Of a DNA stretch of 64,000 nt, positions 2,019 through 25,485 are shown piece after piece (within the stretch, counting starts at the first letter, position 1; each line of letters opens with the position of its first letter). This stretch comes from a virus, in IMG/VR virus record IMGVR_UViG_3300042465_006864, positions 62,001 to 126,000 of that record. One strand, written 5' to 3'. A model generated the notes under the pieces. That model did not search any database. It had not been told where the DNA came from and saw only the letters and a list, made by a program, of their open reading frames with translations. The position numbers and the translations under genes are program-made.

Positions 2019-2111
2019 CAATTATGCCCCCGATCTAATCAAATAATGCCAAATAAGGAATGAGTGCGCCTAAATAAGCGATAGGGGGAAATGATGGTCA
2101 AAAGTGATATG

Positions 2112-2202
2112 CATAAACCGTTGAGCGTCAACGAGTTACAGCAAAATGACCCCTACGGGGTCTTCTCCGTGTAAGTCGTTCATTATCAACAACTTATGAC
2201 GA
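2112..2202 (+). repeat. 91-bp triple-hairpin repeat, copy 1
   Basis: First of ten copies. It has three consecutive stem-loops: a GTTGA-nnn-TCAAC arm, a central GACCCC-loop-GGGGTC arm and a second GTTGA/TCAAC-type arm. The central loop here is TACG (a UNCG loop on the plus strand). It lies in tandem with copy 2 between convergent gene clusters. Confidence 0.95.
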
Positions 2203-2207
2203 GCAGT

Positions 2208-2298
2208 CGTAAACCGTTGAGTTTCAACAACTTACGGCGAAACGACCCCGTAGGGGTCGCGTGGGTGTAAGTCGTTGAGTATCAACAACTTACGACGA
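2208..2298 (+). repeat. 91-bp triple-hairpin repeat, copy 2
   Basis: Same orientation as copy 1 and only 5 bp away. The central loop reads GTAG, which is CTAC on the other strand, so the UACG loop is on the minus strand. Confidence 0.95.
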
Positions 2299-2305
2299 TG
2301 ATTAA

Positions 2306-2329
2306 CCCTACCCCCGCCAAGGGGTAGGG
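2306..2329 (-). terminator. Strong hairpin 3' of the 2341 gene
   Basis: CCCTACCCC / GGGGTAGGG, a perfect 9-bp stem with a 6-nt loop, beginning 11 nt beyond the stop at 2341. There is no U-tract, so termination is not certain; it may protect the RNA 3' end. Confidence 0.5.
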
Positions 2330-2340
2330 CATACCATGTA

Positions 2341-2601
2341 TCACTTACCGTTAGAAAGGTCTAGCATATCTTCAGCCAATATCGAGATGAGTTCTTCCGT
2401 GTATGCATACGGATCATCGCCGCATGATTGAGCGAGTCTTTCAATCGCATCCCACAGCATAATGCGGGGGCGGTTCTCGTCGTCCTCGTCAACCAAGGCA
2501 CAGCAGAGTTGGTCAGCTGTTAGATCGGGAACTTGTGAAAGAAAGTGTCCCGCAGCGCGGAGATATAGGGCGGCATTTTTCGGGTCGTTAAGGTCTGTCA
2601 T
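2341..2601 (-). CDS. Hypothetical acidic helical phage protein
   Basis: An 86-residue acidic protein (MTDLNDPKNAALYLRAAGHFL...). The pattern of alternating Leu/Ala heptads suggests an all-helical fold. Motifs include an LTADQLCCALVDEDDE stretch and a DDPYAYTEEL segment. No family is recognised. The start is fixed by the promoter at 2611-2639, whose -10 box lies 9 nt before the ATG. It is the last gene of the minus-strand early cluster. Confidence 0.75.
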   Translation of the reverse strand: MTDLNDPKNAALYLRAAGHFLSQVPDLTADQLCCALVDEDDENRPRIMLWDAIERLAQSCGDDPYAYTEELISILAEDMLDLSNGK

Positions 2602-2610
2602 AACAGGGAA

Positions 2611-2639
2611 AAGTTAGTTGTTTCGGGGGGAGTTGTCAA
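2611..2639 (-). promoter_or_regulatory. Early leaderless-type promoter of the 2341-2601 gene
   Basis: Minus strand: TTGACA (2639-2634), 17 bp, TAACTT (2616-2611), then TTCCCTGTT and ATG. It overlaps the stop codon and last codons of the upstream gene 2614-2814. Confidence 0.85.
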
Positions 2640-2814
2640 GGTTATTTTCGGGAGTGAGATAGATTTTTCCGTAAGATGTTTCTAACGAAAAAGAGCCGTC
2701 TTGTAACTCCACAAAGTTTTCCATGGTATACATGGATTGTCCGATTTCATCCATGATGCGAGCAACAGCCACTTCATCCAGATCATCGCGAGGAATATCA
2801 ATAGTAATTCTCAT
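2614..2814 (-). CDS. Hypothetical small phage protein
   Basis: A 66-residue protein beginning MRITIDIPRDDLDEVAVARIMDE, suggesting a strand-helix start. No family is recognised. The -10 box lies 8 nt before the ATG. Its last codons contain the promoter for the next gene, showing how tightly single-gene units are packed here. Confidence 0.7.
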   Translation of the reverse strand: MRITIDIPRDDLDEVAVARIMDEIGQSMYTMENFVELQDGSFSLETSYGKIYLTPENNLDNSPRNN

Positions 2815-2822
2815 AGAAAGAA

Positions 2823-2851
2823 AAGTTAGTTGATTTGGGGGGAGTTGTCAA
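2823..2851 (-). promoter_or_regulatory. Early leaderless-type promoter of the 2614-2814 gene
   Basis: Minus strand: TTGACA (2851-2846), 17 bp, TAACTT (2828-2823), TTCTTTCT, ATG. Confidence 0.85.
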
Positions 2852-2854
2852 GTA

Positions 2855-2917
2855 TTATGCGCTCAATGCTAGAATAAAAAGCAGGAACGCAAGAAACAAA
2901 ATTTGTCCTATGGTCAT
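2855..2917 (-). CDS. Tiny single-span membrane peptide coupled to GP88 copy A
   Basis: A 20-codon frame, MTIGQILFLAFLLFILALSA, almost wholly hydrophobic and long enough for one membrane span. Its ATG overlaps the stop of the GP88-family gene as ATGA, a classic translational-coupling arrangement, and it ends 3 nt before the next promoter. A similar 18-residue peptide (8887-8943) follows the second GP88 gene, which argues against chance. Role unknown; a small membrane partner of GP88 is inference. Confidence 0.5.
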   Translation of the reverse strand: MTIGQILFLAFLLFILALSA

Positions 2918-3612
2918 GCAGGTTCAATCACAAAGCCCGAAGAATCTTTTTTCGCTTTGCCTTTTTCGACAAGCCCGACAATGACGTTTTGAGGGTCAAG
3001 AAAGCGCAGGTCACTTTCGTCACCGCTAACGACACGATACCCTTTCCAATTCTCAGGAAGCGAGCCACGGAAAACCACGGCAACATTTCCACCACTGGCA
3101 AGAATAGCGTCAACCAATTTTTCGTTAGACTCAGAACGGGAGAACGTCAACTGATAGTTCGATGGAAATTCACCAGTCAAGAAAGCACTCATTCGTTGCG
3201 CTGACTTGGTATAGTCGTAGAAGGTCACTTGAGGAAACAAATCAAAAACAGTTTTGCCGTTCAGTTTAATTTTTTCCCAAGGAAGATCGCTTGTAAGGTT
3301 CAAGCGGAAACAAGGAACAAGATTTTTCTTTTGCGCCGATTTGATTGCGGCAGCTATCTCTTTCACAAGTTGCGCCATGAACAAAGCCTTATCTTGAAAG
3401 AAGAATTTTGTTTTGGCGATACGGGCAGCTTGAACAGTTGCGAAGATTCCATGTCCCGAAGTGTCAAGACAAGCAGCCTCACAGCCAACGCTTGAATGCT
3501 GGCAGGTGTTGTAGCCCGATTTTGTGCTAGGCGCGAGGTGAACGCCGAACGTCTGGAAGCCTTGAGCTTCCCCTTTTTTGATTTTGCTATTTGAAGTAGT
3601 TAGTAATTTCAT
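2914..3612 (-). CDS. GP88-family phage protein, copy A
   Basis: A 232-residue protein starting MKLLTTSNSKIKKGE. The frame stays open to 3930, but the promoter at 3621-3648 sets the start at 3612, matching the paralogue at 8958-9653. Both show the GP88 (mycobacteriophage gene 88-like) family pattern: T-F-G-x-HLAP, SGYNTC, a CxxAC segment in the N-terminal third, RLNLTSDLPWEK, QVTFYDYTK, YQLTFSRSE, NVAVVFR, and a C-terminal GDESDLRFLD...GLVEKGKAKKDSSGFVIE. The family is widespread in phages; its biochemical function is not established. The four conserved Cys suggest a metal or Fe-S site. It is followed by a coupled membrane peptide. Confidence 0.9.
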   Translation of the reverse strand: MKLLTTSNSKIKKGEAQGFQTFGVHLAPSTKSGYNTCQHSSVGCEAACLDTSGHGIFATVQAARIAKTKFFFQDKALFMAQLVKEIAAAIKSAQKKNLVPCFRLNLTSDLPWEKIKLNGKTVFDLFPQVTFYDYTKSAQRMSAFLTGEFPSNYQLTFSRSESNEKLVDAILASGGNVAVVFRGSLPENWKGYRVVSGDESDLRFLDPQNVIVGLVEKGKAKKDSSGFVIEPA

Positions 3613-3620
3613 GCGGAGAA

Positions 3621-3648
3621 AAGTTAGTTGTTTCGGGGGAGTTGTCAA
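3621..3648 (-). promoter_or_regulatory. Early leaderless-type promoter of GP88 copy A
   Basis: Minus strand: TTGACA (3648-3643), 16 bp, TAACTT (3626-3621), TTCTCCGC, ATG. It decides the start at 3612 against the longer open frame. Confidence 0.85.
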
Positions 3649-3652
3649 GAAT

Positions 3653-4012
3653 TTACCACCAAGAATCGTAAAAAACTTTCTTGCCGTCCTTGATAGCTTG
3701 GCGAGCCGTTGCGATAAACTCCAGGGTTTTTTGCTTGTAGTGGTCATCATCGCGAGAATCAGCACCAAAAAAGAAACCTTGTGTTTCTGGCAAACTGCTA
3801 CCAAGAATGTCTTGCTCCAGTTTGTCAAGATTTTCCATATTGAGTTCCAGCGGAATGCAGTTGAAGGAGCCATCTTCATCATGCTTCTTGGGGCAACCTT
3901 GTTTTTCCCACAGGTTTTCCATCCAGCCATGCAGCGCGTTATGCTTGCGCCAGTAGGCGATTTCTTCTTTGTTTTTTCCTTTTGTAGTGTATGCGAATTG
4001 ATCGAGTCCCAT
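3653..4012 (-). CDS. Conserved phage protein (MGLDQFAY...FYDSWW family)
   Basis: A 119-residue protein recognisable as a widespread phage family of unknown function: it opens MGLDQFAY, carries YWRKHNALHGWMENLW in the first third, GFFFGAD in the middle and ends with an FYDSWW motif. The His/Trp-rich block and conserved acidic positions could form a small enzyme site, but no reaction is known. A promoter with a longer (about 40 nt) ACT-rich leader precedes it. Confidence 0.85.
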   Translation of the reverse strand: MGLDQFAYTTKGKNKEEIAYWRKHNALHGWMENLWEKQGCPKKHDEDGSFNCIPLELNMENLDKLEQDILGSSLPETQGFFFGADSRDDDHYKQKTLEFIATARQAIKDGKKVFYDSWW

Positions 4013-4053
4013 AGTATTGATTAGTTAGTTGTTAGTGATTTCGTGACGGGCAA

Positions 4054-4081
4054 AGAATATCATTTTGCGGCAGAGTGTCAA
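4054..4081 (-). promoter_or_regulatory. Early promoter of the 3653-4012 gene
   Basis: Minus strand: TTGACA (4081-4076), 16 bp, TATTCT (4059-4054). The leader of about 40 nt is made largely of ACTAAC words before the ATG. Confidence 0.7.
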
Positions 4082-4143
4082 CATTTATTTGATTAAAAAA
4101 TAAAAAAAAATAAACCTTGACAATCTCAGGCAATCGCTCAAGT

Positions 4144-4232
4144 CGTAAACCGTTGAGCGTCAACGACTTACGCCAAAACGACCCCGAAGGGGTCGCGTCG
4201 ATGTAACTCGTTGAGTGTCAACGACTTATGAC
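4144..4232 (+). repeat. 91-bp triple-hairpin repeat, copy 3
   Basis: Same layout and orientation as the other copies. The central loop is GAAG (UUCG on the minus strand). Confidence 0.95.
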
Positions 4233-4256
4233 AACCCCGCTTGCGCGGGGGTTGTC
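4230..4256 (-). terminator. Hairpin 3' of the DUF932-like gene
   Basis: GACAACCCCGC / GCGGGGGTTGTC with a TTGC loop and one bulged G, 15 nt beyond the stop at 4272 and overlapping the end of repeat copy 3. On the plus strand it runs into CAAGTC and a T-tract; on the minus strand it has no U-tract. Confidence 0.45.
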
Positions 4257-4271
4257 AAGTCTTTTTTTCGC

Positions 4272-5072
4272 TTAGTCGCGGAAGTCCGTTCCGTCGAGTT
4301 CGGGCGCGTCCTCGCATCCCTTGGTGACAATCTCCTGCACCTCGATTACAGGGGCGTGACTCGCCACACGGTCAAAGATGCTTTGAGTGGTCATCGTGCG
4401 GAAAGGCAGCTTGCTAAGGTCGCCCCCTTTGAGGTTCTCAGTGATGGAATTGTAAAGACTCCAGAGAGTGCGTCCCTTGAACTCTTCATGGCGCGGATTG
4501 CGGAACTCTTCAATCGCGGCGTAAATGTCGCGAGCGGGGAACGCTTTGGAATCAACAAGCGTCACCATCAGATCAGCCGCTTGCGCGTCACTGATTTCCG
4601 TGGTTTTATAGCGATCAATGCGCAAGCCCATATCGTTCCAATGAGACACAACGCGCCCCACGGCATCGCCAAGCACGCGAGGCAAATCGGTTAGAATGTT
4701 GAGGGTGTGGCGGCGAGCGAGCTTCACATCAGAAGCGAAGCAAAGATTCTCGCAAACCATCATGCGATTGCCGATGCAGACAGCGGCAGCAAAAGCCTTG
4801 TCGTGAGAGTTGCGCAAGCCAAGCACCACTTGGCGATCATCGCCAGAAATGCCCTTGCCAGTGAGTGCAAAGCCGCCGAAGTAGCGCAAGCCGCCACGGT
4901 GCAAAGCGTGTTCCTCTTCCAAGACAGTAAGACCAGCGTTCTCGATTGCCTTACGGGTGAGTGTGACAAGCAGGTCGTGAGGAATCGGGGTGTGTGACTC
5001 AGTAGCAGGTGGGGTTTCCACGCCGATGAGTTGCTCGAAGTTGACTTTGTTTTTTGCGATGATGAGTGCCAT
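4272..5072 (-). CDS. DUF932-like phage/plasmid protein
   Basis: A 266-residue protein resembling the DUF932 family (phage/plasmid-related protein): the block GLRNSHDKAFAAAVCIGNRMMVCENL followed by SDVKLARRHT is its signature. The family is often encoded by phages and plasmids next to defence or replication functions, but its activity is unknown. It is the largest gene of the early cluster and has a promoter (TTGACA, 16 bp, TACACT) with a 55-nt leader ending in ACTAACTAACTACTACT. The C-terminus is acidic. A strong frame on the opposite strand (4215-4694, 4707-4997) is a shadow of its biased codons. Confidence 0.85.
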   Translation of the reverse strand: MALIIAKNKVNFEQLIGVETPPATESHTPIPHDLLVTLTRKAIENAGLTVLEEEHALHRGGLRYFGGFALTGKGISGDDRQVVLGLRNSHDKAFAAAVCIGNRMMVCENLCFASDVKLARRHTLNILTDLPRVLGDAVGRVVSHWNDMGLRIDRYKTTEISDAQAADLMVTLVDSKAFPARDIYAAIEEFRNPRHEEFKGRTLWSLYNSITENLKGGDLSKLPFRTMTTQSIFDRVASHAPVIEVQEIVTKGCEDAPELDGTDFRD

Positions 5073-5127
5073 AATGGTAGTAGTAGTTAGTTAGTTTTGA
5101 AGTGTGCCAGTCATTGGCGACGAGGAA

Positions 5128-5155
5128 AGTGTAGCATTTCGGACGGAATTGTCAA
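5128..5155 (-). promoter_or_regulatory. Early promoter of the DUF932-like gene
   Basis: Minus strand: TTGACA (5155-5150), 16 bp, TACACT (5133-5128), TTCCTCGTC discriminator, then a long leader with ACTAAC/ACTACT repeats. Confidence 0.8.
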
Positions 5156-5187
5156 TATGTTTTTTGTATTTTTTCACAATTATTTTT

Positions 5188-5246
5188 GTGCGATTGCGCG
5201 AAAAAAGTTCTTGACACTCTCTAACAGAAAACCTCTAACAGATTTT
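5188..5246 (+). promoter_or_regulatory. Conserved upstream box with plus-strand TTGACA and CTAACAG words
   Basis: GCGCG, A-tract, TTGACA (5211-5216), then CTCTAACAGAAAA and a second CTAACAG. Related boxes lie beside several repeat copies (7541, 8621, 9954, 10467, 11641, 12615). No matching -10 is seen, so an operator or UP-type role is possible. Together with the promoter (5128-5155) and repeat copy 4 it fills the gene-free stretch 5073-5432. Confidence 0.4.
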
Positions 5247-5265
5247 TACTTACAGCAGTAATCTT

Positions 5266-5355
5266 CGTAAACCGTTAAGCGTCAACGACTTACAGCAAAA
5301 CGACCCCTTCGGGGTCGCATCGGCGTAACTCGTTGATACTCAACAACTTATGACG
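5266..5355 (+). repeat. 91-bp triple-hairpin repeat, copy 4
   Basis: The first arm reads GTTAAGCGTCAAC (one change from consensus). The central loop is TTCG on the plus strand. Confidence 0.95.
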
Positions 5356-5432
5356 CTTAGAAAATCCCCCACCAGAAGTAAGCTGCAATCAGTCGGGGCA
5401 TGAAGCCCCTTGTCCTTCTGGCGAGAGAAAAA

Positions 5433-5567
5433 TTATTTCTTTTGTTCTGCTATCTGCTTCTTGCCATCGCGCCTAACAAGTTTATTTTGTGCGCGTTTTC
5501 TATCGCGTAGATGTTTCCACCATTCGACAGTTCTAACAGAACCTTTTGATTTACTTGATGAAGCCAC
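5433..5567 (-). CDS. Basic WWKHL-motif small protein, GTG start or frameshift product
   Basis: A frame encoding a basic tail SKGSVRTVEWWKHLRD, RKRAQNKLVRR and DGKKQIAEQKK. The WWKHLR motif followed by R/K-rich residues is familiar from small phage proteins. There is no ATG in this frame; a GTG at 5567 is possible. Alternatively the frame is the +1 continuation of 5551-5694, since the two frames overlap across A6 runs and together read as one basic protein of about 90 residues. See findings. Coding is likely; the exact start is uncertain. Confidence 0.45.
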   Translation of the reverse strand: MASSSKSKGSVRTVEWWKHLRDRKRAQNKLVRRDGKKQIAEQKK

Positions 5568-5694
5568 GACATTCTTTTTTGTTAGATTCTTTTTTGCGAT
5601 CCTTGAGGGCAAAGCAAGGGGGAGGCATAGGATGACGGCTTAGGTTGCGCATGTCAAGAGAATTTTGCGCGAGTTGTTTTTTGTGGCGTTTCAT
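5551..5694 (-). CDS. Small basic protein coupled to SprT-like gene
   Basis: A 47-codon frame (MKRHKKQLAQNSLDMRNL...) whose ATG overlaps the stop of the SprT-like gene as ATGA. It contains MPPPCFALKDRKK and ends ECRGFIK. It may be only the first half of a protein that continues in another frame (5433-5567) by frameshift or because of an indel in an A6 run. Confidence 0.4.
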   Translation of the reverse strand: MKRHKKQLAQNSLDMRNLSRHPMPPPCFALKDRKKESNKKECRGFIK

Positions 5695-6044
5695 GCTATA
5701 GCTTGGTAGATGATTGGAATGTGAGTGCGAGCGGGTATTCCCATTTCTTTACACACGGCAGCGAAGTCTTTTCCGTGGAAACTACGGCGACCATTCTTAG
5801 TAAGAAGAAAACGATTGCCGTTGCGCTTCCACTGAATGTGATGAGCAATCTCATGCTTCAACACTTCGTCGAAAGTTTTGAAAGAGCAGAGAATGCGTTT
5901 GCTTAGTTTGATTTTACCTTCAGCAACATAAGCAAGACCAAGATGACGTTCAGAGTTCATCCATTGAATTTTGAGATGAGACATGCTCCATTGCTTTAGA
6001 GTCATGCGGATGTATTGTTCGATTTCGGAAGTGGTGGCAAACAT
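5691..6044 (-). CDS. SprT-like zinc metallopeptidase
   Basis: A 117-residue protein with the HExxH zinc-protease motif as HEIAHH at residues 64-69 and a downstream H-G-K-D-F at about 90-94 followed by CKEMG, the arrangement of SprT/Spartan-like proteases. The preceding segment (GKIKLSKRIL...TFDEVLKHE) also matches. It is shorter than cellular SprT and lacks the C-terminal four-Cys zinc ribbon. Family members cleave DNA-bound proteins; phage copies are common but their targets are unknown. A leaderless-type promoter (6054-6082) fixes the start; a small basic gene overlaps its stop. Confidence 0.88.
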   Translation of the reverse strand: MFATTSEIEQYIRMTLKQWSMSHLKIQWMNSERHLGLAYVAEGKIKLSKRILCSFKTFDEVLKHEIAHHIQWKRNGNRFLLTKNGRRSFHGKDFAAVCKEMGIPARTHIPIIYQAIA

Positions 6045-6053
6045 GGCGGCGAA

Positions 6054-6082
6054 AGTTTAAGGTTTTTGGGTGGTGGTGTCAA
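6054..6082 (-). promoter_or_regulatory. Early leaderless-type promoter of the SprT-like gene
   Basis: Minus strand: TTGACA (6082-6077), 17 bp, TAAACT (6059-6054), TTCGCCGCC, ATG. Confidence 0.85.
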
Positions 6083-6269
6083 TCTTTTTTTTTAATTGTT
6101 TTAAATTAAATTCAGTTCTTATTTTGCAAGCAGTAAGAGCAAAAGAGGGAATCAAAAAACCCATAGAACAAAACATAATCAAACCATCCAAAACAGTGCA
6201 GAGACCCTGCAAAGCGAAAAGTGGATATTCTAACAAATGAACTCTTTTTTTAACAAAGTGAATTTTCAT
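6057..6269 (-). CDS. Small two-span membrane protein
   Basis: A 70-residue protein with a hydrophobic core (about residues 15-48, LFALQGLCTVLDGL / IMFCSMGFLIPSFAL) that could form one or two membrane helices, followed by a basic tail KQLKKKIDTTTQKP. No signal peptidase site is evident. Function unknown. The end of the gene overlaps the promoter of the SprT-like gene. Confidence 0.65.
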   Translation of the reverse strand: MKIHFVKKRVHLLEYPLFALQGLCTVLDGLIMFCSMGFLIPSFALTACKIRTEFNLKQLKKKIDTTTQKP

Positions 6270-6278
6270 GGCGGCAAT

Positions 6279-6306
6279 AGATTAGTGTTTTTTGGGGAAG
6301 TGTCAA
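6279..6306 (-). promoter_or_regulatory. Early leaderless-type promoter of the 6057-6269 gene
   Basis: Minus strand: TTGACA (6306-6301), 16 bp, TAATCT (6284-6279), ATTGCCGCC, ATG. Confidence 0.85.
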
Positions 6307-6317
6307 CATATTTTTAA

Positions 6318-6674
6318 TCAAAAAGCAGCAAAAACTTGTCTGCCATGCAATAGCACTTCTTCTGCGCGAAAGATGTTAGAACCTTGGCACTGAAACTGAT
6401 CGACCTCATACGGGTTATATCTAACAGAAAGAAAAAACTTATTAGATTGGATGCCAGAAACTAACGTGCCAATGATGAATGCGTGAACATTCTTCTTTTT
6501 CTGTTTAATCACACGCTGACGACCAGCTTCCGATACTTTGAATTGCGCGTTTCTAACGCAAGCGTGTTCCAAGTGACAAACGACTTTCCAGCGTCCGTCA
6601 ACTTTTGTCTGGACAGACAACTTTTTCTTGTGGAGGTTAAAGTAGATTCTAACGATTTGATTGAGTGGTAACAT
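6318..6674 (-). CDS. Conserved phage protein (FNLHKK...AGRxRVxxxKKKNVHA)
   Basis: A 118-residue protein starting MLPLNQIVRIYFNLHKKK. It has the layout of a recurrent uncharacterised phage family: V-x-FNLH-K near the start, GRWKVVCHL, then FKVSEAGRQRV followed by KKKNVHAF. The frame is open to 6692, but the promoter box (6684-6712) requires the ATG at 6674. Function unknown. Confidence 0.8.
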   Translation of the reverse strand: MLPLNQIVRIYFNLHKKKLSVQTKVDGRWKVVCHLEHACVRNAQFKVSEAGRQRVIKQKKKNVHAFIIGTLVSGIQSNKFFLSVRYNPYEVDQFQCQGSNIFRAEEVLLHGRQVFAAF

Positions 6675-6683
6675 GGCAAGAGA

Positions 6684-6712
6684 AAAATACACTTTCTGCG
6701 GCTATTTGTCAA
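6684..6712 (-). promoter_or_regulatory. Early leaderless-type promoter of the 6318-6674 gene
   Basis: Minus strand: TTGACA (6712-6707), 17 bp, TATTTT (6689-6684), TCTCTTGCC, ATG. Confidence 0.85.
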
Positions 6713-6724
6713 CAACTTTTTGCG

Positions 6725-6767
6725 AATAAATAGCAAATAAATAGCAAATAAATAGCAAATAAATAAC
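6725..6767 (+). repeat. 11-bp AT-rich tandem repeat
   Basis: About four head-to-tail copies of AATAAATAGCA directly upstream of the 6318 gene's promoter. It is AT-rich and could act as an UP element or a DNA-unwinding tract. The gene-free stretch 6675-7013 otherwise holds repeat copy 5 and a hairpin. Confidence 0.85.
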
Positions 6768-6823
6768 CTTCAAATAACCTTAGGGGTAGGAGAGGGGGAA
6801 TCTAACAGATTTTAAGCAGGATG

Positions 6824-6914
6824 CGTAAACTGTTGAGTATCAACGACTTACGGCAAAACGACCCCTACGGGGTCGCGGCGGTGTAACTCGTTCATTATCA
6901 ACGACTTACGACGA
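6824..6914 (+). repeat. 91-bp triple-hairpin repeat, copy 5
   Basis: Central loop TACG (UACG on plus). The first arm reads TGTTGAGTATCAACG, with a compensated loop. Confidence 0.95.
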
Positions 6915-6957
6915 TTGTCTTCGCGCTGCAATGTCAAGACTTTTTTTTGACAATTTT

Positions 6958-6987
6958 GGGGAGCGGTTAAACCATAAACCGCTCCCC
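6958..6987 (-). terminator. Strong hairpin 3' of the 7014 gene
   Basis: GGGGAGCGGTT / AACCGCTCCCC, a perfect 11-bp stem with an 8-nt loop, 26 nt after the stop at 7014. On the RNA of that gene it is followed by A-rich, not U-rich, sequence. Confidence 0.5.
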
Positions 6988-7013
6988 GTTTTGCCAATGC
7001 CACCAGAAAATTG

Positions 7014-7244
7014 TTAGACTTCGAAGCCTTCTTCTTCTAACAGTTCCACAACTGCATCTTGCGCGATGTTTTGCAATTCGGAAAGGTGTAAGCCGTCCCC
7101 CCATCGCTCGATGAGTTCTTCCATTTCATCGAGAGCGTTCATCACACAGGGCAAGTCGGGCAAGTCAGCGAGAGACAAGCTGCCCGACATTCTGAGGCAG
7201 ATGTTATTCATTATCGTTATGCAGCGTTTGCGATTGTTAGTCAT
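7014..7244 (-). CDS. Hypothetical small phage protein
   Basis: A 76-residue protein, basic at the N-terminus (MTNNRKRC) and acidic at the C-terminus (VVELLEEEGFEV), probably all-helical. Leaderless-type promoter. No family recognised. Confidence 0.65.
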   Translation of the reverse strand: MTNNRKRCITIMNNICLRMSGSLSLADLPDLPCVMNALDEMEELIERWGDGLHLSELQNIAQDAVVELLEEEGFEV

Positions 7245-7253
7245 GGCGGGGAT

Positions 7254-7281
7254 ATGTTAGTTGTTTTGGGGGGATTGTCAA
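7254..7281 (-). promoter_or_regulatory. Early leaderless-type promoter of the 7014-7244 gene
   Basis: Minus strand: TTGACA (7281-7276), 16 bp, TAACAT (7259-7254), ATCCCCGCC, ATG. Confidence 0.8.
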
Positions 7282-7284
7282 GAT

Positions 7285-7470
7285 TTATTTTCTGTTTTTA
7301 AGTATTTCTTCCAATTTGTTTTTATCGTAAAAGAAGCTATCTTCATTCAATTTACCGAAGAAAAAAGATTTTGGCTCATCAGTGTCACTGATCTCATAGT
7401 CAAGAGAAGACAAGATTTCATAAATGCTTGTGAGTAGGTGAACGGGAACTTCAATAGTTTGATTTGACAT
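7285..7470 (-). CDS. Hypothetical small phage protein
   Basis: A 61-residue acidic protein (MSNQTIEVPVHLLTSIYEIL...) with a central KSFFFGKLNED and a basic C-terminus. No family recognised. Its promoter has the alternative -35 TTGCGC. Confidence 0.65.
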   Translation of the reverse strand: MSNQTIEVPVHLLTSIYEILSSLDYEISDTDEPKSFFFGKLNEDSFFYDKNKLEEILKNRK

Positions 7471-7479
7471 GGCGGGGAA

Positions 7480-7508
7480 AGAGTAGCAGAAAAAACCAAT
7501 CAGCGCAA
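7480..7508 (-). promoter_or_regulatory. Early promoter with TTGCGC -35 of the 7285-7470 gene
   Basis: Minus strand: TTGCGC (7508-7503), 17 bp, TACTCT (7485-7480), TTCCCCGCC, ATG. Confidence 0.75.
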
Positions 7509-7540
7509 GTATTTTCTTTGATTATTTTTGAAAAAAAAGT

Positions 7541-7567
7541 TTGTCATAAGTGCAAAAAAACTTGACA
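7541..7567 (+). promoter_or_regulatory. Conserved upstream box
   Basis: GTCATAAGTGC, an A-tract and CTTGACAAG (a near-palindrome) next to repeat copy 6. It is related to the boxes at 8621, 9954, 10467 and 11641. Confidence 0.4.
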
Positions 7568-7588
7568 AGTGTCACTAGTTTATCAAGT

Positions 7589-7679
7589 CATAAACCGTTG
7601 AGCGTCAACAACTTACGACAAAACGACCCCGAAGGGGTCGCGTCGATGTAACTCGTTGAGCGTCAACAACTTACGACGA
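7589..7679 (+). repeat. 91-bp triple-hairpin repeat, copy 6
   Basis: Central loop GAAG (UUCG on minus). Confidence 0.95.
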
Positions 7680-7695
7680 TTGCGATTGAGTGTTA

Positions 7696-7717
7696 AGCCA
7701 GCCCCGAAGGGCTGGCT
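7696..7717 (-). terminator. UUCG-capped hairpin 3' of the 7730 gene
   Basis: AGCCAGCCC / GGGCTGGCT, a perfect 9-bp stem. Read on the minus strand the loop is TTCG. It lies 12 nt after the stop. No U-tract on the minus strand. Confidence 0.5.
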
Positions 7718-7729
7718 GTGTATTTTTCG

Positions 7730-7879
7730 TTAGACGAACTCCAGAGTGCCTAACGGAACTTCATCCTCGCGCCCATCCTCAAAGCGGATGAGTGCGCGAT
7801 TTCCAACTGGAGTATTTACAACTTCGACAAGCTCAACTTCTGAGCCACAGTAAATGACGATTTCGATTTCTTCGATCAT
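7730..7879 (-). CDS. Small beta-rich phage protein (49 aa)
   Basis: 49 residues, MIEEIEIVIYCGSEVELVEV, then NRALIRFEDGREDEVPLGTLEFV. Alternating hydrophobics and a GREDEVP turn suggest a compact beta barrel. The frame extends to 7981, but the promoter at 7889-7917 (TATTCT, then TTCCCCGCC) places the start at 7879. Function unknown. Confidence 0.65.
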   Translation of the reverse strand: MIEEIEIVIYCGSEVELVEVVNTPVGNRALIRFEDGREDEVPLGTLEFV

Positions 7880-7888
7880 GGCGGGGAA

Positions 7889-7917
7889 AGAATAGAATGT
7901 TTTTGCGGTTAAGTCAA
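7889..7917 (-). promoter_or_regulatory. Early leaderless-type promoter of the 7730-7879 gene
   Basis: Minus strand: TTGACT (7917-7912), 17 bp, TATTCT (7894-7889), TTCCCCGCC, ATG. A-tracts upstream resemble an UP element. Confidence 0.85.
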
Positions 7918-7949
7918 CAAGTTTTTTTGTTTTTTTTTGCATTTTTTTT

Positions 7950-7975
7950 GAGGGGACGGCTTTCGCCGCCCCCTC
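7950..7975 (-). terminator. GAAA-capped hairpin 3' of the 7985 gene
   Basis: GAGGGG-CGGC / GCCG-CCCCTC with one mismatch. On the minus strand the loop is GAAA (GNRA type). It is followed by A-tracts that also serve as the upstream region of the next promoter. Confidence 0.5.
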
Positions 7976-7984
7976 TGCCATGCA

Positions 7985-8281
7985 TCAAGCCACCACGCTT
8001 GAAAATTGTTTGTCGATCTTGCCACACTTGAAAAGCAAAACCTTTTCAGGTTTGAAGCAAAAGTAACCGTTACGGTTGCGGTCAACGGCGAACATATAAC
8101 CGTCTTGACGGAGCGCATCAGTAGCAGGGGAACCAGTTCCCTTGACTAGACCAGTGAAACGATCTTTTGCGTTAATCGTGCGGATTGTGCCATCTTTCTT
8201 GACAAAAGTGAGGGAAAAGAATTTTCCTTTTGTTGCTTCGATGAGGGCTGTGATTTCTTCTTTTGTTGGTGCGTTTTGCAT
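7985..8281 (-). CDS. SH3-like beta-barrel phage protein (KKDGTxRxixA)
   Basis: A 98-residue protein starting MQNAPTKEEITALIEATKGKFF. The core SLTFVKKDGTIRTINAKDRF...GLVKGTG matches phage proteins annotated as SH3 beta-barrel fold proteins of unknown function. The frame is open upstream to 8521, but the promoter (8313-8341) and its 31-nt leader place the start at 8281. Confidence 0.8.
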   Translation of the reverse strand: MQNAPTKEEITALIEATKGKFFSLTFVKKDGTIRTINAKDRFTGLVKGTGSPATDALRQDGYMFAVDRNRNGYFCFKPEKVLLFKCGKIDKQFSSVVA

Positions 8282-8312
8282 GATGTTTATTTGGTTAGTA
8301 GTAGGCGGGGAA

Positions 8313-8341
8313 AGTGTAAGCGGTTTTTTGAAGTTTGTCAA
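8313..8341 (-). promoter_or_regulatory. Early promoter of the 7985-8281 gene
   Basis: Minus strand: TTGACA (8341-8336), 17 bp, TACACT (8318-8313), TTCCCCGCC, then a CTACTACTAACC leader before ATG. Confidence 0.88.
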
Positions 8342-8342
8342 C

Positions 8343-8528
8343 TTATTTTTTGCTGTTTTGAATAAAAGTTTGCAAACGTGCAAGAGTGTAGCAAGTTGCG
8401 CCGAAAACAAGGAAACAAATACAATCAAACAATTCGTTTTTTCCGCCATAAATGGCGAAAGCGCAAAGGCTGAAAGTAGGCGAGAGGGTGACAATAGCGG
8501 AGGCAATGATGGTAAATGCATGTTTCAT
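8343..8528 (-). CDS. Small two-span membrane protein
   Basis: A 61-residue protein with two hydrophobic segments (FTIIASAIVTLSPTFSLCAFA and LFDCICFLVFGATCYTLA) separated by YGGKNE, and a short basic tail. Probably an inner-membrane protein. Its promoter has a 30-nt leader with ACTAACAACACC. No family recognised. Confidence 0.65.
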   Translation of the reverse strand: MKHAFTIIASAIVTLSPTFSLCAFAIYGGKNELFDCICFLVFGATCYTLARLQTFIQNSKK

Positions 8529-8558
8529 TTTTTTTTGGTGTTGTTAGTAGGCGGGGAA

Positions 8559-8587
8559 AGAATAGTCTTTTTTTTGGCATCCGTCAA
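8559..8587 (-). promoter_or_regulatory. Early promoter of the 8343-8528 gene
   Basis: Minus strand: TTGACG (8587-8582), 17 bp, TATTCT (8564-8559), TTCCCCGCC, then leader. Confidence 0.8.
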
Positions 8588-8620
8588 CATTTTTTTTGTT
8601 TTATTTTCGAAAAAAAGTTT

Positions 8621-8663
8621 TGTCATAATGTGTTTTTTTTCTTGACAAGTTTCTAACAGAAAA
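8621..8663 (+). promoter_or_regulatory. Conserved upstream box
   Basis: TGTCATAATG, T-tract, CTTGACAAG, TTCTAACAGAAAA. Same order as the boxes at 9954, 10467 and 11641. With repeat copy 7 and a hairpin it fills the gene-free stretch 8529-8886. Confidence 0.45.
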
Positions 8664-8696
8664 TACTTTTTTGACTTGTTAGGCATCATGCATCTG

Positions 8697-8787
8697 CATA
8701 AACCGTTGAGCGTCAACGACTTACGCCAAAACGACCCCGAAGGGGTCGCGTCGATGTAAGTTGTTGAGTATCAACGACTTATGACGA
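8697..8787 (+). repeat. 91-bp triple-hairpin repeat, copy 7
   Basis: Central loop GAAG (UUCG on minus). The third arm is a near-perfect stem of over 12 bp. Confidence 0.95.
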
Positions 8788-8840
8788 TTGTCATCGCGCT
8801 ATGTTGTCAAGATTTTTTTTTCACTTTTTTTCTGTTAGAG

Positions 8841-8872
8841 AGCGCCCCCCTTTTTTCTGTTAGAGAGGCGCT
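8841..8872 (-). terminator. Hairpin 3' of the GP88 copy B unit
   Basis: AGCGCC / GGCGCT around a 20-nt loop that includes a second copy of the direct repeat CTGTTAGAGAG (8832-8842, 8858-8868). It lies 15 nt beyond the tiny peptide's stop. Confidence 0.35.
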
Positions 8873-8886
8873 GAGTCTAACGATTT

Positions 8887-8943
8887 TTATTTTCGGTCCG
8901 CTATCAGGAACAGCAGCACCGCAACAATCAAGAGAAAAATCAT
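8887..8943 (-). CDS. Tiny single-span membrane peptide downstream of GP88 copy B
   Basis: An 18-codon frame, MIFLLIVAVLLFLIADRK: a hydrophobic span with a short basic end, starting 14 nt after the GP88 stop. It parallels the 20-residue peptide after GP88 copy A (2855-2917). Translation is not proven. Confidence 0.45.
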   Translation of the reverse strand: MIFLLIVAVLLFLIADRK

Positions 8944-8957
8944 TTTTTTGTTAGGTG

Positions 8958-9653
8958 TTAGTGTTCGATCACGAAACCGCTTTCGTCTTTTTTCGCCTTG
9001 CCTTTCTCGACAAGTCCAACAATTTTTCCCGCGCCATCAAGAAAGCGTAAATCCGTTTCATCGCCATTTACAACGTCCACGCCTAACCATTTCGAGGGTA
9101 GCGACTTTCTGAAAACCATTGCGACATTGCCGCCCGATTTCAAAATTGATTCTGCGATTGCGCCGTTTGTTTCAGACTTGGAAAAAGTCAAATGATAATT
9201 TTGCGGCATTTCACCAGCAAGAAAAGCGGTCATGCGTTCGGGGGATTTTGTGTAATCATAGAATTGCACACTAGGAAACAAATCAAAAACACTTTGCCCG
9301 TTGAGTTTGATTTTCTCCCATGGTAAATCACTGGTAAGATTGAGGCGGAAAACAGCAGTGAGATTTTGCTTTTCGGCAGATTTAACGGCGGCAGTAATTT
9401 CTTTGATTAACTGCGACAAGAAAACAGCTTTATCCTTAAAGAATAAACGAGTTTTTTCGATGCGTGAATTTTGCACGTTGGAGAATGCGCCCATGCCAGC
9501 AGTATTGAGACAGGCAGCGGCACAACCTGCGCTTGCATCTTTGCAGACGTTGAAGCCAGAGAGAGAGGCGGGAGCGAGGTGAATTCCGAACGTGCGGAAA
9601 CCGATTTTTTCACCTTTGCGGATTTTAGCATTTGCTGTGGTAAGTAATTTCAT
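8958..9653 (-). CDS. GP88-family phage protein, copy B
   Basis: A 231-residue paralogue of 2914-3612, alike over its whole length: MKLLTTANAKIRKGE, T-F-G-I-HLAP, CKDASAGCAAAC, RLNLTSDLPWEK, QFYDYTKSPERM, YHLTFSKSE, NVAMVFRK, and a C-terminal GLVEKGKAKKDESGFVIEH. Function of the family is unknown. Promoter, single-gene organisation and a following membrane peptide are shared with copy A, so the cassette appears to have been duplicated long ago; the many synonymous and amino-acid differences argue against a recent copy. Confidence 0.9.
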   Translation of the reverse strand: MKLLTTANAKIRKGEKIGFRTFGIHLAPASLSGFNVCKDASAGCAAACLNTAGMGAFSNVQNSRIEKTRLFFKDKAVFLSQLIKEITAAVKSAEKQNLTAVFRLNLTSDLPWEKIKLNGQSVFDLFPSVQFYDYTKSPERMTAFLAGEMPQNYHLTFSKSETNGAIAESILKSGGNVAMVFRKSLPSKWLGVDVVNGDETDLRFLDGAGKIVGLVEKGKAKKDESGFVIEH

Positions 9654-9662
9654 GACAGGGAA

Positions 9663-9690
9663 AAGTTAGCAGATTGAGAAAAAAAGTCAA
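9663..9690 (-). promoter_or_regulatory. Early leaderless-type promoter of GP88 copy B
   Basis: Minus strand: TTGACT (9690-9685), 16 bp, TAACTT (9668-9663), TTCCCTGTC, ATG. Confidence 0.85.
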
Positions 9691-9704
9691 CAGTTTTTTT
9701 TGTT

Positions 9705-9881
9705 TTATTTCAGATTTTGCACAGTGTGAGAAATTCTGATGAACCAAGCGCAAGAAGCCAAGAAGCCAATGATTGCGCAAGCGTGTGATTCTGTGGTGGT
9801 GGATTGTGCGCCCCAAACAATGAACACGATGCACATAATGAGTGAGATGATCGAAGAGGCAAGGATGATGAAGTATTTCAT
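9705..9881 (-). CDS. Small two-span membrane protein (58 aa)
   Basis: 58 codons: MKYFIILASSIISLIMCIVF, then IVWGAQSTTTESHACAIIG, then FLASCAWFIRISHTVQNLK. Two hydrophobic segments flank a short polar loop; the ends are basic. The -10 box (TACTTT) lies 9 nt before the ATG with the usual TTCCCCGTC block, which supports the gene. No family recognised. Confidence 0.7.
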   Translation of the reverse strand: MKYFIILASSIISLIMCIVFIVWGAQSTTTESHACAIIGFLASCAWFIRISHTVQNLK

Positions 9882-9890
9882 GACGGGGAA

Positions 9891-9919
9891 AAAGTAGCAT
9901 TTTATAAGCTAACGCGCAA
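9891..9919 (-). promoter_or_regulatory. Early promoter with TTGCGC -35 of the 9705-9881 gene
   Basis: Minus strand: TTGCGC (9919-9914), 17 bp, TACTTT (9896-9891), TTCCCCGTC, ATG. Confidence 0.8.
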
Positions 9920-9953
9920 GTATTTTTTTCTATTTTTTATTTATTTTTTTTTG

Positions 9954-9995
9954 CGTCATAGTGCATTTTTTTGTTGACAAACTCCTAACAGAAAA
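9954..9995 (+). promoter_or_regulatory. Conserved upstream box
   Basis: CGTCATAGTGC, T-tract, TTGACAAAC (9974-), TCCTAACAGAAAA beside repeat copy 8. Confidence 0.45.
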
Positions 9996-10029
9996 CGCTT
10001 TTTTTAGTTGTTAGAAGCCTAACAGATTT

Positions 10030-10120
10030 CGTAAACCGTTGAGCGTCAACGAGTTACACCAAAATGACCCCTTCGGGGTCGCCTCGACGTAAGTCGTTGA
10101 GTATCAACAACTTATGACGA
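10030..10120 (+). repeat. 91-bp triple-hairpin repeat, copy 8
   Basis: Central loop TTCG (UUCG on plus). It ends 24 nt before the stop of the 10144 gene. Confidence 0.95.
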
Positions 10121-10143
10121 TTCGAGGCGCAGCGTAAGAACTG

Positions 10144-10395
10144 TTAGAAGTCGCCGCAGCAGCCATCCATGCCCCACTCGCTGATCTCATGGCGATCTTC
10201 GTAGGCGGCATCGAGCCAATAGTCTTCGTTGCCTTCGTCACTGTAATCCGTCCAATGCCCATCGAGGTGGGAGTCATCAAGAAAGATTTCTTCTGGAGGG
10301 TCAGGGAGTTGATCGGCAGCGTCTGCGAAAGCTTCGCAAGCGGCAACATATTCTTCGTATTCGGCGGGGCAGTTGATGAAAGGGTGGTTAAACAT
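10144..10395 (-). CDS. Hypothetical strongly acidic phage protein
   Basis: An 83-residue, very acidic protein rich in Asp, Glu, Tyr and Trp (PAEYEEYVAACEAFADAA, then DDSHLDGHWTDYSDEG) ending CCGDF. No family is recognised. Such acidic small early proteins can mimic DNA or bind host proteins, but nothing here shows it. The promoter has a consensus TATAAT -10. Confidence 0.7.
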   Translation of the reverse strand: MFNHPFINCPAEYEEYVAACEAFADAADQLPDPPEEIFLDDSHLDGHWTDYSDEGNEDYWLDAAYEDRHEISEWGMDGCCGDF

Positions 10396-10404
10396 GACGG
10401 GGAA

Positions 10405-10433
10405 ATTATACTCCGAAACACATAGAAACGCAA
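10405..10433 (-). promoter_or_regulatory. Early promoter with consensus TATAAT -10 of the 10144-10395 gene
   Basis: Minus strand: TTGCGT (10433-10428), 17 bp, TATAAT (10410-10405), TTCCCCGTC, ATG. Confidence 0.88.
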
Positions 10434-10466
10434 CAACTTTTTTCTATTTTATGCAAAAAAAAAGTT

Positions 10467-10510
10467 TTGTCATAAAGCGTTTTTTTTCTTGACAAACATC
10501 TAACGAAAAA
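10467..10510 (+). promoter_or_regulatory. Conserved upstream box
   Basis: TTGTCATAAAGCG, T-tract, CTTGACAAAC, ATCTAACGAAAAA beside repeat copy 9. Confidence 0.45.
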
Positions 10511-10533
10511 AGGTTTTTAACACGCTGCGTCTT

Positions 10534-10624
10534 CGTAAACCGTTGAGCGTCAACGACTTACGCCAAAACGACCCCGTAGGGGTCGCGTCGATGTAACTCG
10601 TTCATTATCAACGACTTATGACGA
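10534..10624 (+). repeat. 91-bp triple-hairpin repeat, copy 9
   Basis: Central loop GTAG (UACG on minus). Confidence 0.95.
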
Positions 10625-10654
10625 TTGTATTTTTTTTTATTTTTTTCTTGACAA

Positions 10655-10680
10655 GGGAGCCAGCCTTGCGACTGACTCCC
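10655..10680 (-). terminator. Hairpin 3' of the 10694 gene
   Basis: GGGAG-CAG / CTG-CTCCC, 13 nt after the stop; the RNA then reads TTGTCAAG and A-tracts. Confidence 0.45.
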
Positions 10681-10693
10681 GATCTGTTAGATG

Positions 10694-10945
10694 TTAGACT
10701 ACGAGGTCAATTCCAGAGATGTGAAGATTGCGATATTTACTTTCGCCGCCATCATCAACGTCTAACGCTTTTACAGTGACGTATCGCTTGCCGTTCGCGG
10801 CAAATGCTACTTTGTCCACCGCTTCAATCTTGAGAACGCGAACGCCATCAGCTTTGACTTTCGAGTTTTCAGCAAAGTAGCGCACGGTTTTGTTGACGAG
10901 GGCGGAAACGACTTGTTCGGTAGGTGTATTGTAATCGAAGAACAT
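10694..10945 (-). CDS. Conserved small phage protein (ALDVDDGGExKYRNLHI)
   Basis: An 83-residue protein; the second half, GKRYVTVKALDVDDGGESKYRNLHISGID, looks like a small beta-barrel protein class seen in other phages, with a conserved D-V-D-D-G-G turn. The N-terminal part is helical (TPTEQVVSALVNKTVRYFAEN). Function unknown. Confidence 0.75.
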   Translation of the reverse strand: MFFDYNTPTEQVVSALVNKTVRYFAENSKVKADGVRVLKIEAVDKVAFAANGKRYVTVKALDVDDGGESKYRNLHISGIDLVV

Positions 10946-10954
10946 AACGAGGAA

Positions 10955-10983
10955 AAGATAGAAGATTTTTGCGGTATTGTCAA
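10955..10983 (-). promoter_or_regulatory. Early leaderless-type promoter of the 10694-10945 gene
   Basis: Minus strand: TTGACA (10983-10978), 17 bp, TATCTT (10960-10955), TTCCTCGTT, ATG. Confidence 0.88.
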
Positions 10984-11177
10984 GATTCTTTTATGAAAAC
11001 TGAGATTATCCAAGCGGAACAGCAAGCAGTGAAAAGAGAAAGCGATCCCAAAAGATAAGTTGTCATATTTTGAGGGCAGCACACAAGAAACGAAAGACTT
11101 GCAAGCGGAGATAAAAAGCCGCTAGTCACAAGACAAATAGCGATAGTTGATTTGATATTTTCGATGGTTGATTTCAT
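10980..11177 (-). CDS. Small two-span membrane protein
   Basis: A 65-residue protein with hydrophobic segments at about residues 11-33 (TIAICLVTSGFLSPLASLSF) and 41-60 (YLLGSLSLFTACCSAWIISV), ending FIKES. It resembles the other small membrane proteins of this cluster in size and layout (8343, 9705) though not clearly in sequence. Its stop overlaps the next gene's -35 region. Confidence 0.65.
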   Translation of the reverse strand: MKSTIENIKSTIAICLVTSGFLSPLASLSFLVCCPQNMTTYLLGSLSLFTACCSAWIISVFIKES

Positions 11178-11200
11178 AGTAGTTAGTTGGTTGCGAGAGA

Positions 11201-11229
11201 AAGATAGAAGATTTTTGCGAGATTGTCAA
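11201..11229 (-). promoter_or_regulatory. Early promoter of the 10980-11177 gene
   Basis: Minus strand: TTGACA (11229-11224), 17 bp, TATCTT (11206-11201), TCTCTCGC, leader ACCAACTAACTACT, ATG. Confidence 0.88.
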
Positions 11230-11243
11230 TAAGTTTTTTTGAT

Positions 11244-11555
11244 TTATTTTTCGACAATCTCAAAAACTGTTGTGATGTATTCGCGCACAGTGCAGAATGT
11301 TTTCGTGGTGATGTTTTCCCAAGGGATGATTTGTTCAATCACTGCGCCATAGTTGCAGTATTGAGCAAGACCTTCAGTCCTTGTAACACCCATGATTTCA
11401 TCACCTACTGCGTAGGTTTTGATTTGACCATAACCATAGTCAATCGTCAATTCAACTTTTGCAAAGTATTTATCCTCATATTTTTCTGTTGCTTTGTTAG
11501 CAGTATTGAGGGCGATTGCTTTATATTGTGGCTTGAGGTTAGGTTGAGCGTTCAT
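11244..11555 (-). CDS. Hypothetical phage protein
   Basis: A 103-residue protein starting MNAQPNLKPQYKAIALN. The region KYFAKVELTIDYGYGQIKTYAVGDEIMGVTR suggests beta strands; the C-terminus (TFCTVREYITTVFEIVEK) is probably a strand-helix pair. The open frame extends to 11597, but the promoter at 11579-11607 and its short CAACCAATACTAACC leader set the start at 11555. Function unknown. Confidence 0.7.
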   Translation of the reverse strand: MNAQPNLKPQYKAIALNTANKATEKYEDKYFAKVELTIDYGYGQIKTYAVGDEIMGVTRTEGLAQYCNYGAVIEQIIPWENITTKTFCTVREYITTVFEIVEK

Positions 11556-11578
11556 GGTTAGTATTGGTTGACGGGGAA

Positions 11579-11607
11579 AGTGTAACGCATAACGCATGAA
11601 AGCGCAA
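11579..11607 (-). promoter_or_regulatory. Early promoter with TTGCGC -35 of the 11244-11555 gene
   Basis: Minus strand: TTGCGC (11607-11602), 17 bp, TACACT (11584-11579), TTCCCCGTC, short leader, ATG. Confidence 0.82.
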
Positions 11608-11640
11608 GAACTTTTTTATCTTTTTTTCTTTTTTTATTTT

Positions 11641-11683
11641 GCGGCATAATGCATTTTTTTCTTGACAAAACTCTAACAGAAAA
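11641..11683 (+). promoter_or_regulatory. Conserved upstream box
   Basis: GCGGCATAATGC, T-tract, CTTGACAAAA, CTCTAACAGAAAA beside repeat copy 10. The gene-free stretch 11556-11890 holds a promoter, this box, the repeat and a palindrome array. Confidence 0.45.
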
Positions 11684-11716
11684 TGTTTTTTCGTGCATAG
11701 TATAGCACAGCGTATG

Positions 11717-11807
11717 CGTAAACCGTTGAGCGTCAACGACTTACGCCAAAACGACCCCGAAGGGGTCGCGTCGATGTAAGTCGTTGAGTATCAACAACTT
11801 ATGACGA
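11717..11807 (+). repeat. 91-bp triple-hairpin repeat, copy 10
   Basis: Central loop GAAG (UUCG on minus). This is the last copy before the virion module. Confidence 0.95.
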
Positions 11808-15031: not shown

Positions 15032-15721
15032 GTGGAATCTCCTAAAAAAAAGACATACGAAGAGTGCTATACTATTATAGACACTGTTGTTTCAAAATAT
15101 CAAAGCAAGTGGAGGCTCAACGCCATAAACTGGTTTGACTTTGAAGATGTAGCGCAAATTGTTAAAACTCACATTTTTAAAAAGTGGCACTTGTGGGATC
15201 AAGAGCGACCATTGGAGCCTTGGGTTTCGAGAATCGCTTCTCACCAAATCAAAAATATAGTACGCAACAATTATACGAACTATGTTAAGCCTTGTATGTC
15301 TTGCCCCCACAATCTTGGAGACAATCTATGCTCTTTGACGAGATCAGGAGATCAAAACTCTTCTTGCACAATGTATGCAAAATGGGCTAAATCAAAGCGT
15401 CAAGGATATGGCGTAAAGATGCCGCTAGCAATGGAAAACCATCAGCAAGAGATTGATTTATTTACTGATTCTGGTGTTGATTTTGATGCATCTATCGAAA
15501 GAATAAATGAAGTTCTAAAAAAAGAATTATCTGAAGAACATTATCAAGTGTATATGATGTTGTTCTTTGAAGATGCGTCAGAGGACGATGTAGCAAAGTA
15601 TATGGGGTATAAAACTTCTGAAAAGAATCGTGCCGCTGGCTACAAGCAGATTAAAAATCTCAAAAAAATGCTGAAAGAAAAAGTGCAACAAATTATTGCC
15701 AAAAACGACATCATACTATGA
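15032..15721 (+). CDS. Sigma-70-like transcription factor (virion-operon sigma)
   Basis: 229 residues from a GTG start immediately after the upstream TAA. Residues about 28-80 match sigma region 2 (WFDFEDVAQIVKTHIF...WDQERPLEPWVSRIASHQIKN), and residues about 165-225 match region 4 with a helix-turn-helix (LSEEHYQVYMMLFFEDASEDDVAKYMG). Between them is an unusual insert with Cys88, 91, 100 and 112 that could bind zinc. The family recruits RNA polymerase to special promoters; phage versions (T4 gp55 is the classic case) direct late transcription. The gene is placed among packaging genes and overlaps the next by ATGA. It is a candidate reader of the GTGTAATA motif. Confidence 0.75.
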   Translation: MESPKKKTYEECYTIIDTVVSKYQSKWRLNAINWFDFEDVAQIVKTHIFKKWHLWDQERPLEPWVSRIASHQIKNIVRNNYTNYVKPCMSCPHNLGDNLCSLTRSGDQNSSCTMYAKWAKSKRQGYGVKMPLAMENHQQEIDLFTDSGVDFDASIERINEVLKKELSEEHYQVYMMLFFEDASEDDVAKYMGYKTSEKNRAAGYKQIKNLKKMLKEKVQQIIAKNDIIL

Positions 15722-25408: not shown

Positions 25409-25485
25409 GCTGGGGGGTTCGCCTCCCAGCTTTCAAAAAACCCACCACGCCTCTCAACGATGCGAACCAGGGTGGGTATTTTTTT
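25409..25485 (+). terminator. Double hairpin terminator after the capsid gene
   Basis: GCTGGG / CCCAGC (25409-25430), then CCCACC / GGTGGG (25441-25476) followed by TATTTTTTT. Confidence 0.85.

Follow-up and report, generated by a model that had tools for sequence, protein, structure and literature searches.

RNase III sites in the early region of phage T7 are intergenic sequences that can fold into a long hairpin containing an internal loop. T4-type phages carry promoter early stem-loop (PeSL) cassettes (Arbiol 2010; Comeau 2014, both cited in PMC4503421), and small inversions are known in chloroplast hairpin loops (e.g. PMC2903610, PMC6824564). How phages exchange small host-takeover genes without wrecking transcription is poorly understood outside the T4-type phages. 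Here we analyse a repeated element in a window of 64,000 nucleotides of viral DNA (positions 62,001 to 126,000 of IMG/VR record IMGVR_UViG_3300042465_006864), no description of which was found in the literature searched, where the PeSL papers were represented by the paper that cites them (PMC4503421). Our leading proposal, to which we give somewhat less than an even chance, is that the element, bound by a protein, forms a boundary between early transcription units and is also a recombination joint, its binder and its effect on transcription both being putative.

Ten copies in the early region of a phage

The phage has genes for a terminase, a tape measure protein, a ribonucleotide reductase and a DnaB-like helicase, and carries ten copies of a 91-bp element on one strand, which align without gaps across all ten with a mean column identity of 91% (Table 1). 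A BLAST search of the entire 133,831-bp record with the consensus recovered these ten sites and none beyond; weaker minus-strand matches fall on the same ten sites because the element is nearly palindromic. Together, search and alignment confirm the original prediction that same-oriented intergenic copies are confined to the early region, the rest of the record being empty of them. The window contains 21 occurrences of the arm pattern where 2.3 would be expected, and none of 100 shuffles reached 21. Rfam gave no match to the element at gathering score, which supports its earlier designation as an undescribed repeat family; the only RNA found in the window was an abiF RNA (RF03085), above gathering score, located elsewhere at 25441-25477 within the phage genome.

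Small minus-strand genes surround the copies, and an A/T-rich repeat like the one beside copy 10 adjoins several others. Several copies are also flanked by a partial outer inverted repeat with A/T runs, CTTGACAA...TTGTCAAG or shorter (copies at 4143, 8696 and 11716). The same early region holds two paralogues of Pfam family GP88 (2914-3612 and 8958-9653).

Table 1 Coordinates of the element copies and neighbouring features in the window.
Feature	Position	Strand	Remarks
Element copy 1	2111..2201	+	Loop TAC; tandem with copy 2 at convergent gene boundary
Element copy 2	2207..2297	+	Loop GTA
Element copy 3	4143..4233	+	Loop GAA
Element copy 4	5265..5355	+	Loop TTC
Element copy 5	6823..6913	+	Loop TAC
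Element copy 6	7588..7678	+	Loop GAA
Element copy 7	8696..8786	+	Loop GAA
Element copy 8	10029..10119	+	Loop TTC
Element copy 9	10533..10623	+	Loop GTA
Element copy 10	11716..11806	+	Loop GAA
Copy 10 arm 1	11719..11743	.	Dyad TAAACCGTTGA-GCG-TCAACGACTTA
Copy 10 central palindrome	11753..11767	.	GACCCC-GAA-GGGGTC
Copy 10 arm 2	11777..11801	.	Dyad TAAGTCGTTGA-GTA-TCAACAACTTA
A/T-rich repeat and sigma70-type promoter	11560..11715	-	Between copy 10 and gene 11244-11555(-); read from sequence and alignment
Small gene	11244..11555	-	In relative L059, lies in another cassette next to an additional copy of the element

The element family and its architecture

Matches to a degenerate arm pattern were found in at least 116 IMG/VR stretches, and in 84,980 species genomes at 31 places, most of which have a single arm. 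IMG/VR contigs among the matches listed, together with the window, yielded 396 distinct two-arm elements, and the family members are related uncultivated tailed phages. In their elements a G+C-rich core, averaging 88% G+C outside the kin of the window, lies between two dyad arms of the form TAASTCSTTGA-NNN-TCAASGASTTA. This double dyad thus comprises two palindromic 25-bp sites, or four 11-bp half-sites TAASTCSTTGA, with arm starts mostly 50 bp apart and spacings of 42, 48, 52 and 58 bp (the window type) also represented. In all four half-sites TAA and T9 are invariant, and there are positions that tolerate either C or G. Inner half-sites, which face the core, are better conserved than outer ones (p 2e-10), and half-site conservation depends little on gene direction. 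A multi-frame stop-codon reading of the TAA and TGA at invariant positions was rejected, since at one stop-bearing position non-stop changes outnumber stop-keeping ones.

Terminase, PhoH and other core genes are common to this phage and ten of 11 other records compared, while the eleventh, a short contig, has only a few early genes in common; terminase identity to this phage ranges from 38 to 93%. The core genes common to element-bearing records point to vertical inheritance within one phage clade. The element is not essential, as its canonical form is present in only five of the 14 relatives that were selected by terminase and have 8.2 kb or more of DNA upstream. Among five relatives without the canonical element whose repeats were listed, two (L245 and L264) have, at the same place upstream of the terminase, intergenic palindromic repeats that are unrelated in sequence and built around a G+C-rich core, and repeats of the L245 type were found in one further contig.

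The many scattered intergenic palindromic copies could be taken for a selfish mobile repeat, REP/REPIN- or MITE-like and spread by a transposase, a kind of mobility that the original prediction had entertained. We consider this highly improbable: the Y1 transposase (PF01797) was found in none of 19 records, element-bearing records share core genes, orthologous positions are kept between relatives, and most copies lie in one region of the genome in the records examined.

Among the named phages and plasmids searched, the full element was absent and only half-sites or single arms were found. One partial match, in IncW plasmid R7K, lies between the stb genes and a hypothetical gene adjoining a type IV secretion gene, near the position that oriT occupies in R388. 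The sequence AAGTCGTTGAAAATCAACGACTTACGCGCACCGAAAGGTGCGTAT is common to plasmids BPP5P1 (L171) and R7K (L172), at ~1500-1560, near transfer genes.

Folding, loop inversion and base-pairing constraint

Six of the ten copies were folded as RNA, and in all six the minimum free energy (MFE) structure is a single long hairpin in which arm 1 pairs with arm 2 and the core sits at the tip (-31 to -45 kcal/mol, z -3.9 to -7.0). Two copies were folded on both strands, and in these the RNA hairpin of the minus strand is the stronger. One copy folded as single-stranded DNA forms three hairpins, so that the three consecutive stem-loops originally described hold as DNA, in that copy, and not as RNA. In the core GACCCC-NNN-GGGGTC a 6-bp stem closes a loop of 3 nt, and this triloop is the one adopted in the MFE fold. 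The described alternation of the central loop stands, as TNC in four copies and GNA in six, whereas the UNCG tetraloop does not; a function for such a tetraloop was rejected because its register is wrong, the loop being a triloop in a 6-bp stem, and because it keeps to no consistent strand.

In the kin of the window the loop is always GAA, GTA, TTC or TAC. Read in window orientation, it is GNA 43 times and TNC 32 times in 75 readings, of which many come from near-identical contigs. Between near-identical phages, orthologous copies have the same loop, and a single flip, from TAC to GTA, was seen relative to phages whose flanks are 75% identical. Occasional inversion of the loop, as earlier suggested, is thus supported by one event at deeper divergence. 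Such flips resemble the small inversions of chloroplast hairpin loops and so need no special machinery.

Covariation between arm positions had been set as a test beforehand. The ten window copies contain none for either the long hairpin or the three-hairpin structure, and in 195 diverse arms, picked without any filter on the tested positions, essentially none was detected, base pairing being barely above chance (total z 1.2). Pairing is weakly over-represented at position 4 of these arms (z 2.9). At position 8 there are 83 single changes and 2 compensating double changes to C-G (z -3.1); this avoidance of the double change runs contrary to what a hairpin would produce. The compensatory base changes that serve as a criterion for structured RNA were found neither within nor between arms. 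On the sense strand, the window kin have 52 G.U against 4 A.C, in copies that are related and not independent, and this surplus would suit RNA structure; outside these kin the counts are 88 G.U and 146 A.C. A long-hairpin RNA on the sense strand, attractive from the window alone, is therefore not borne out by the family, and the RNA or UNCG function first envisaged finds no support in arm covariation, in loop strand or in clade-wide G.U counts.

An RNA-level element would act through the 3′ end of the early mRNA, which would fold into a long hairpin or three hairpins and terminate transcription, protect the 3′ end or be cut by RNase III, as happens between the early genes of T7. We regard this as unlikely, though as the likeliest of the alternatives: it would explain the siting after stop codons, the strength of the folds, the G.U-rich sense strand of the window kin, and the other hairpin-forming repeats in two relatives that lack the motif. 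It is opposed by the missing covariation, by the G.U and A.C counts outside the kin, by the inconsistent loop strand, and by downstream DNA that is A-rich rather than U-rich.

With almost no covariation and no clade-wide excess of sense G.U, the data agree better with recognition of a specific sequence than with maintenance of a hairpin. The protein-binding array listed among the originally predicted roles is accordingly supported as a possibility, with a putative binder. Pfam matches of conserved genes comprised weak sigma-70 region 2 similarity and RecA-like, primase, nuclease, reductase, sugar-enzyme and unknown proteins, among which no binder was identified. The sigma-70 region 2 similarity, below the Pfam cut-off, belongs to a conserved 229-aa protein (window 15032-15721) that is a candidate phage sigma factor.

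Position relative to genes and promoters

With genes in relatives called by a simple codon model, a stop codon lies within 20 bp of the element in 60 of 287 cases, against 7 of 266 for a start codon (18 of 266 at less than 60 bp). Starts appear from about 60 bp on, which leaves room for a promoter. Sigma70-like promoter sites do sit between element and start, and the promoter-like score is 11.2 from the element to the next start compared with 9.6 upstream of the element (n=98). The DNA 3′ of the element is A-rich and lacks a U-tract, for which reason an intrinsic terminator was rejected. Gene neighbours are in tandem at 195 elements, convergent at 20 and divergent at nine, and some convergent elements fill the whole gap between two stop codons. 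In the window, several small early genes (2341-11555) have TTGACA-N17-TAnnnT promoters that end ~8-10 nt before the ATG (e.g. TTTCCCCGCCATG), a spacing that suggests near-leaderless transcripts; the family median distance from -35 to ATG is 37.

The half-site recurs in the T4-like Stenotrophomonas phage DLP6 (KU682439, L231-L233), where TCAACGACTTA is present 11 times in 35 kb with at most one mismatch, against 0.6 expected. These occurrences are mostly direct repeats 25-26 bp apart, 3′ of stop codons, and they often precede a terminator hairpin and lie upstream of a TATAAT-like site. Their general form is TCAASSACTTA, and the variants TCAACCACTTA and TCAAGGACTTA differ at the same positions as the window family. 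The DLP6 authors reported 25 predicted phage promoters, 22 of them in groups of two before gene clusters (PMC5349666), and we infer that these paired promoters are the TCAACGACTTA repeats.

If so, the DLP6 pairs would favour a regulatory operator that activates or shuts off the downstream early promoter, as would the combination of dyad sites with promoter-like sites downstream. The distance to the next start varies widely, however, and twenty elements occupy convergent boundaries, some spanning the gap between two stop codons, which makes an operator improbable as the general explanation.

Gene shuffling at homologous elements

Different genes adjoin homologous elements in related phages, and the sequence to the left of such an element matches another locus than the sequence to its right. 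In relative L059, for instance, a homologue of gene 11244-11555 and an extra element lie with the counterpart of copy 7 on one side and that of gene 8958-9653 on the other. In the comparison with L059, eight of ten synteny-block ends have an element within 170 bp, where 3.8 would be expected (p~0.008), and the comparison with L126 is weaker (10 of 17 near an element, p~0.07); both p-values are rough, as block ends are not fully independent.

An array of small genes with an element after each, in which cassette places differ between relatives, recalls an integron-like platform for site-specific recombination with the element as an attC-like site. The chance of this is very slight, given that tyrosine recombinase (PF00589) was found in 0 of 19 records by a search that was positive in 14 of 14 control genomes, and that block ends spread over ~170 bp instead of falling at one base.

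Proposed role of the element

As a protein-bound boundary, the element would be recognised by a dimeric protein, encoded by phage or host, that binds the dyad sites in duplex DNA. Once bound, this protein may keep neighbouring transcription units apart in both directions, by roadblock, termination or insulation. As a joint, the element would allow recombination to exchange cassettes of gene, promoter and element, as PeSLs do in T4-type phages, a role suggested by the recurrence of the same element and promoter region every ~1 kb.

More tentatively, and with the balance leaning against it, we suggest that the element exemplifies a class of phage boundary element that is new, namely a double-dyad site with a putative undescribed binder that parts early units and provides swap points for accessory genes, with the same design realised in unrelated sequence in sister lineages and its half-site present in a T4-like phage. 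Hundreds of copies, in relatives with terminase identities down to 38%, make a ready data set on the exchange of small host-takeover genes, and the element can serve as bait for finding its putative binding protein. The analysis also cautions that palindromic repeats should not be read as RNA hairpins without a covariation test.

Comparison with known systems

As far as PeSLs are characterised in the paper that cites their original descriptions, the element resembles them in being a repeated intergenic cassette of a variable early region, between small genes; in following a gene and sharing its intergenic cassette with an early promoter downstream; and, in the few relatives compared, in marking the joints of modular gene shuffling. 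It differs in its double-dyad architecture with a G+C core, in its phage clade, and in the intrinsic terminator of hairpin and U-tract, in place of which it has A-rich downstream DNA and no pairing covariation. Because the element as tested departs from the terminator part of the PeSL definition, we do not file it as a PeSL.

T7 RNase III sites are likewise intergenic, in the early region and capable of a long hairpin, whereas the element occupies convergent boundaries too and has no detected base-pairing constraint. REP/REPIN sequences are also repeated intergenic palindromes with inverted pairs; unlike them, the element comes with no detected RAYT gene (Y1 transposase), mostly in one region per phage and at conserved positions. 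Unlike integron attC sites, it has no tyrosine integrase in the same genome, in the 19 records searched. Chloroplast small inversions similarly reverse a loop sequence within a palindrome, but the phage flips occur inside a repeated element and are rare between orthologues. The DLP6 repeats are direct repeats, not dyads, many of them followed by a hairpin with a T-run, and yet they have the same 11-bp half-site as the element, the same C/G-tolerant positions and the same place between stop codon and promoter.
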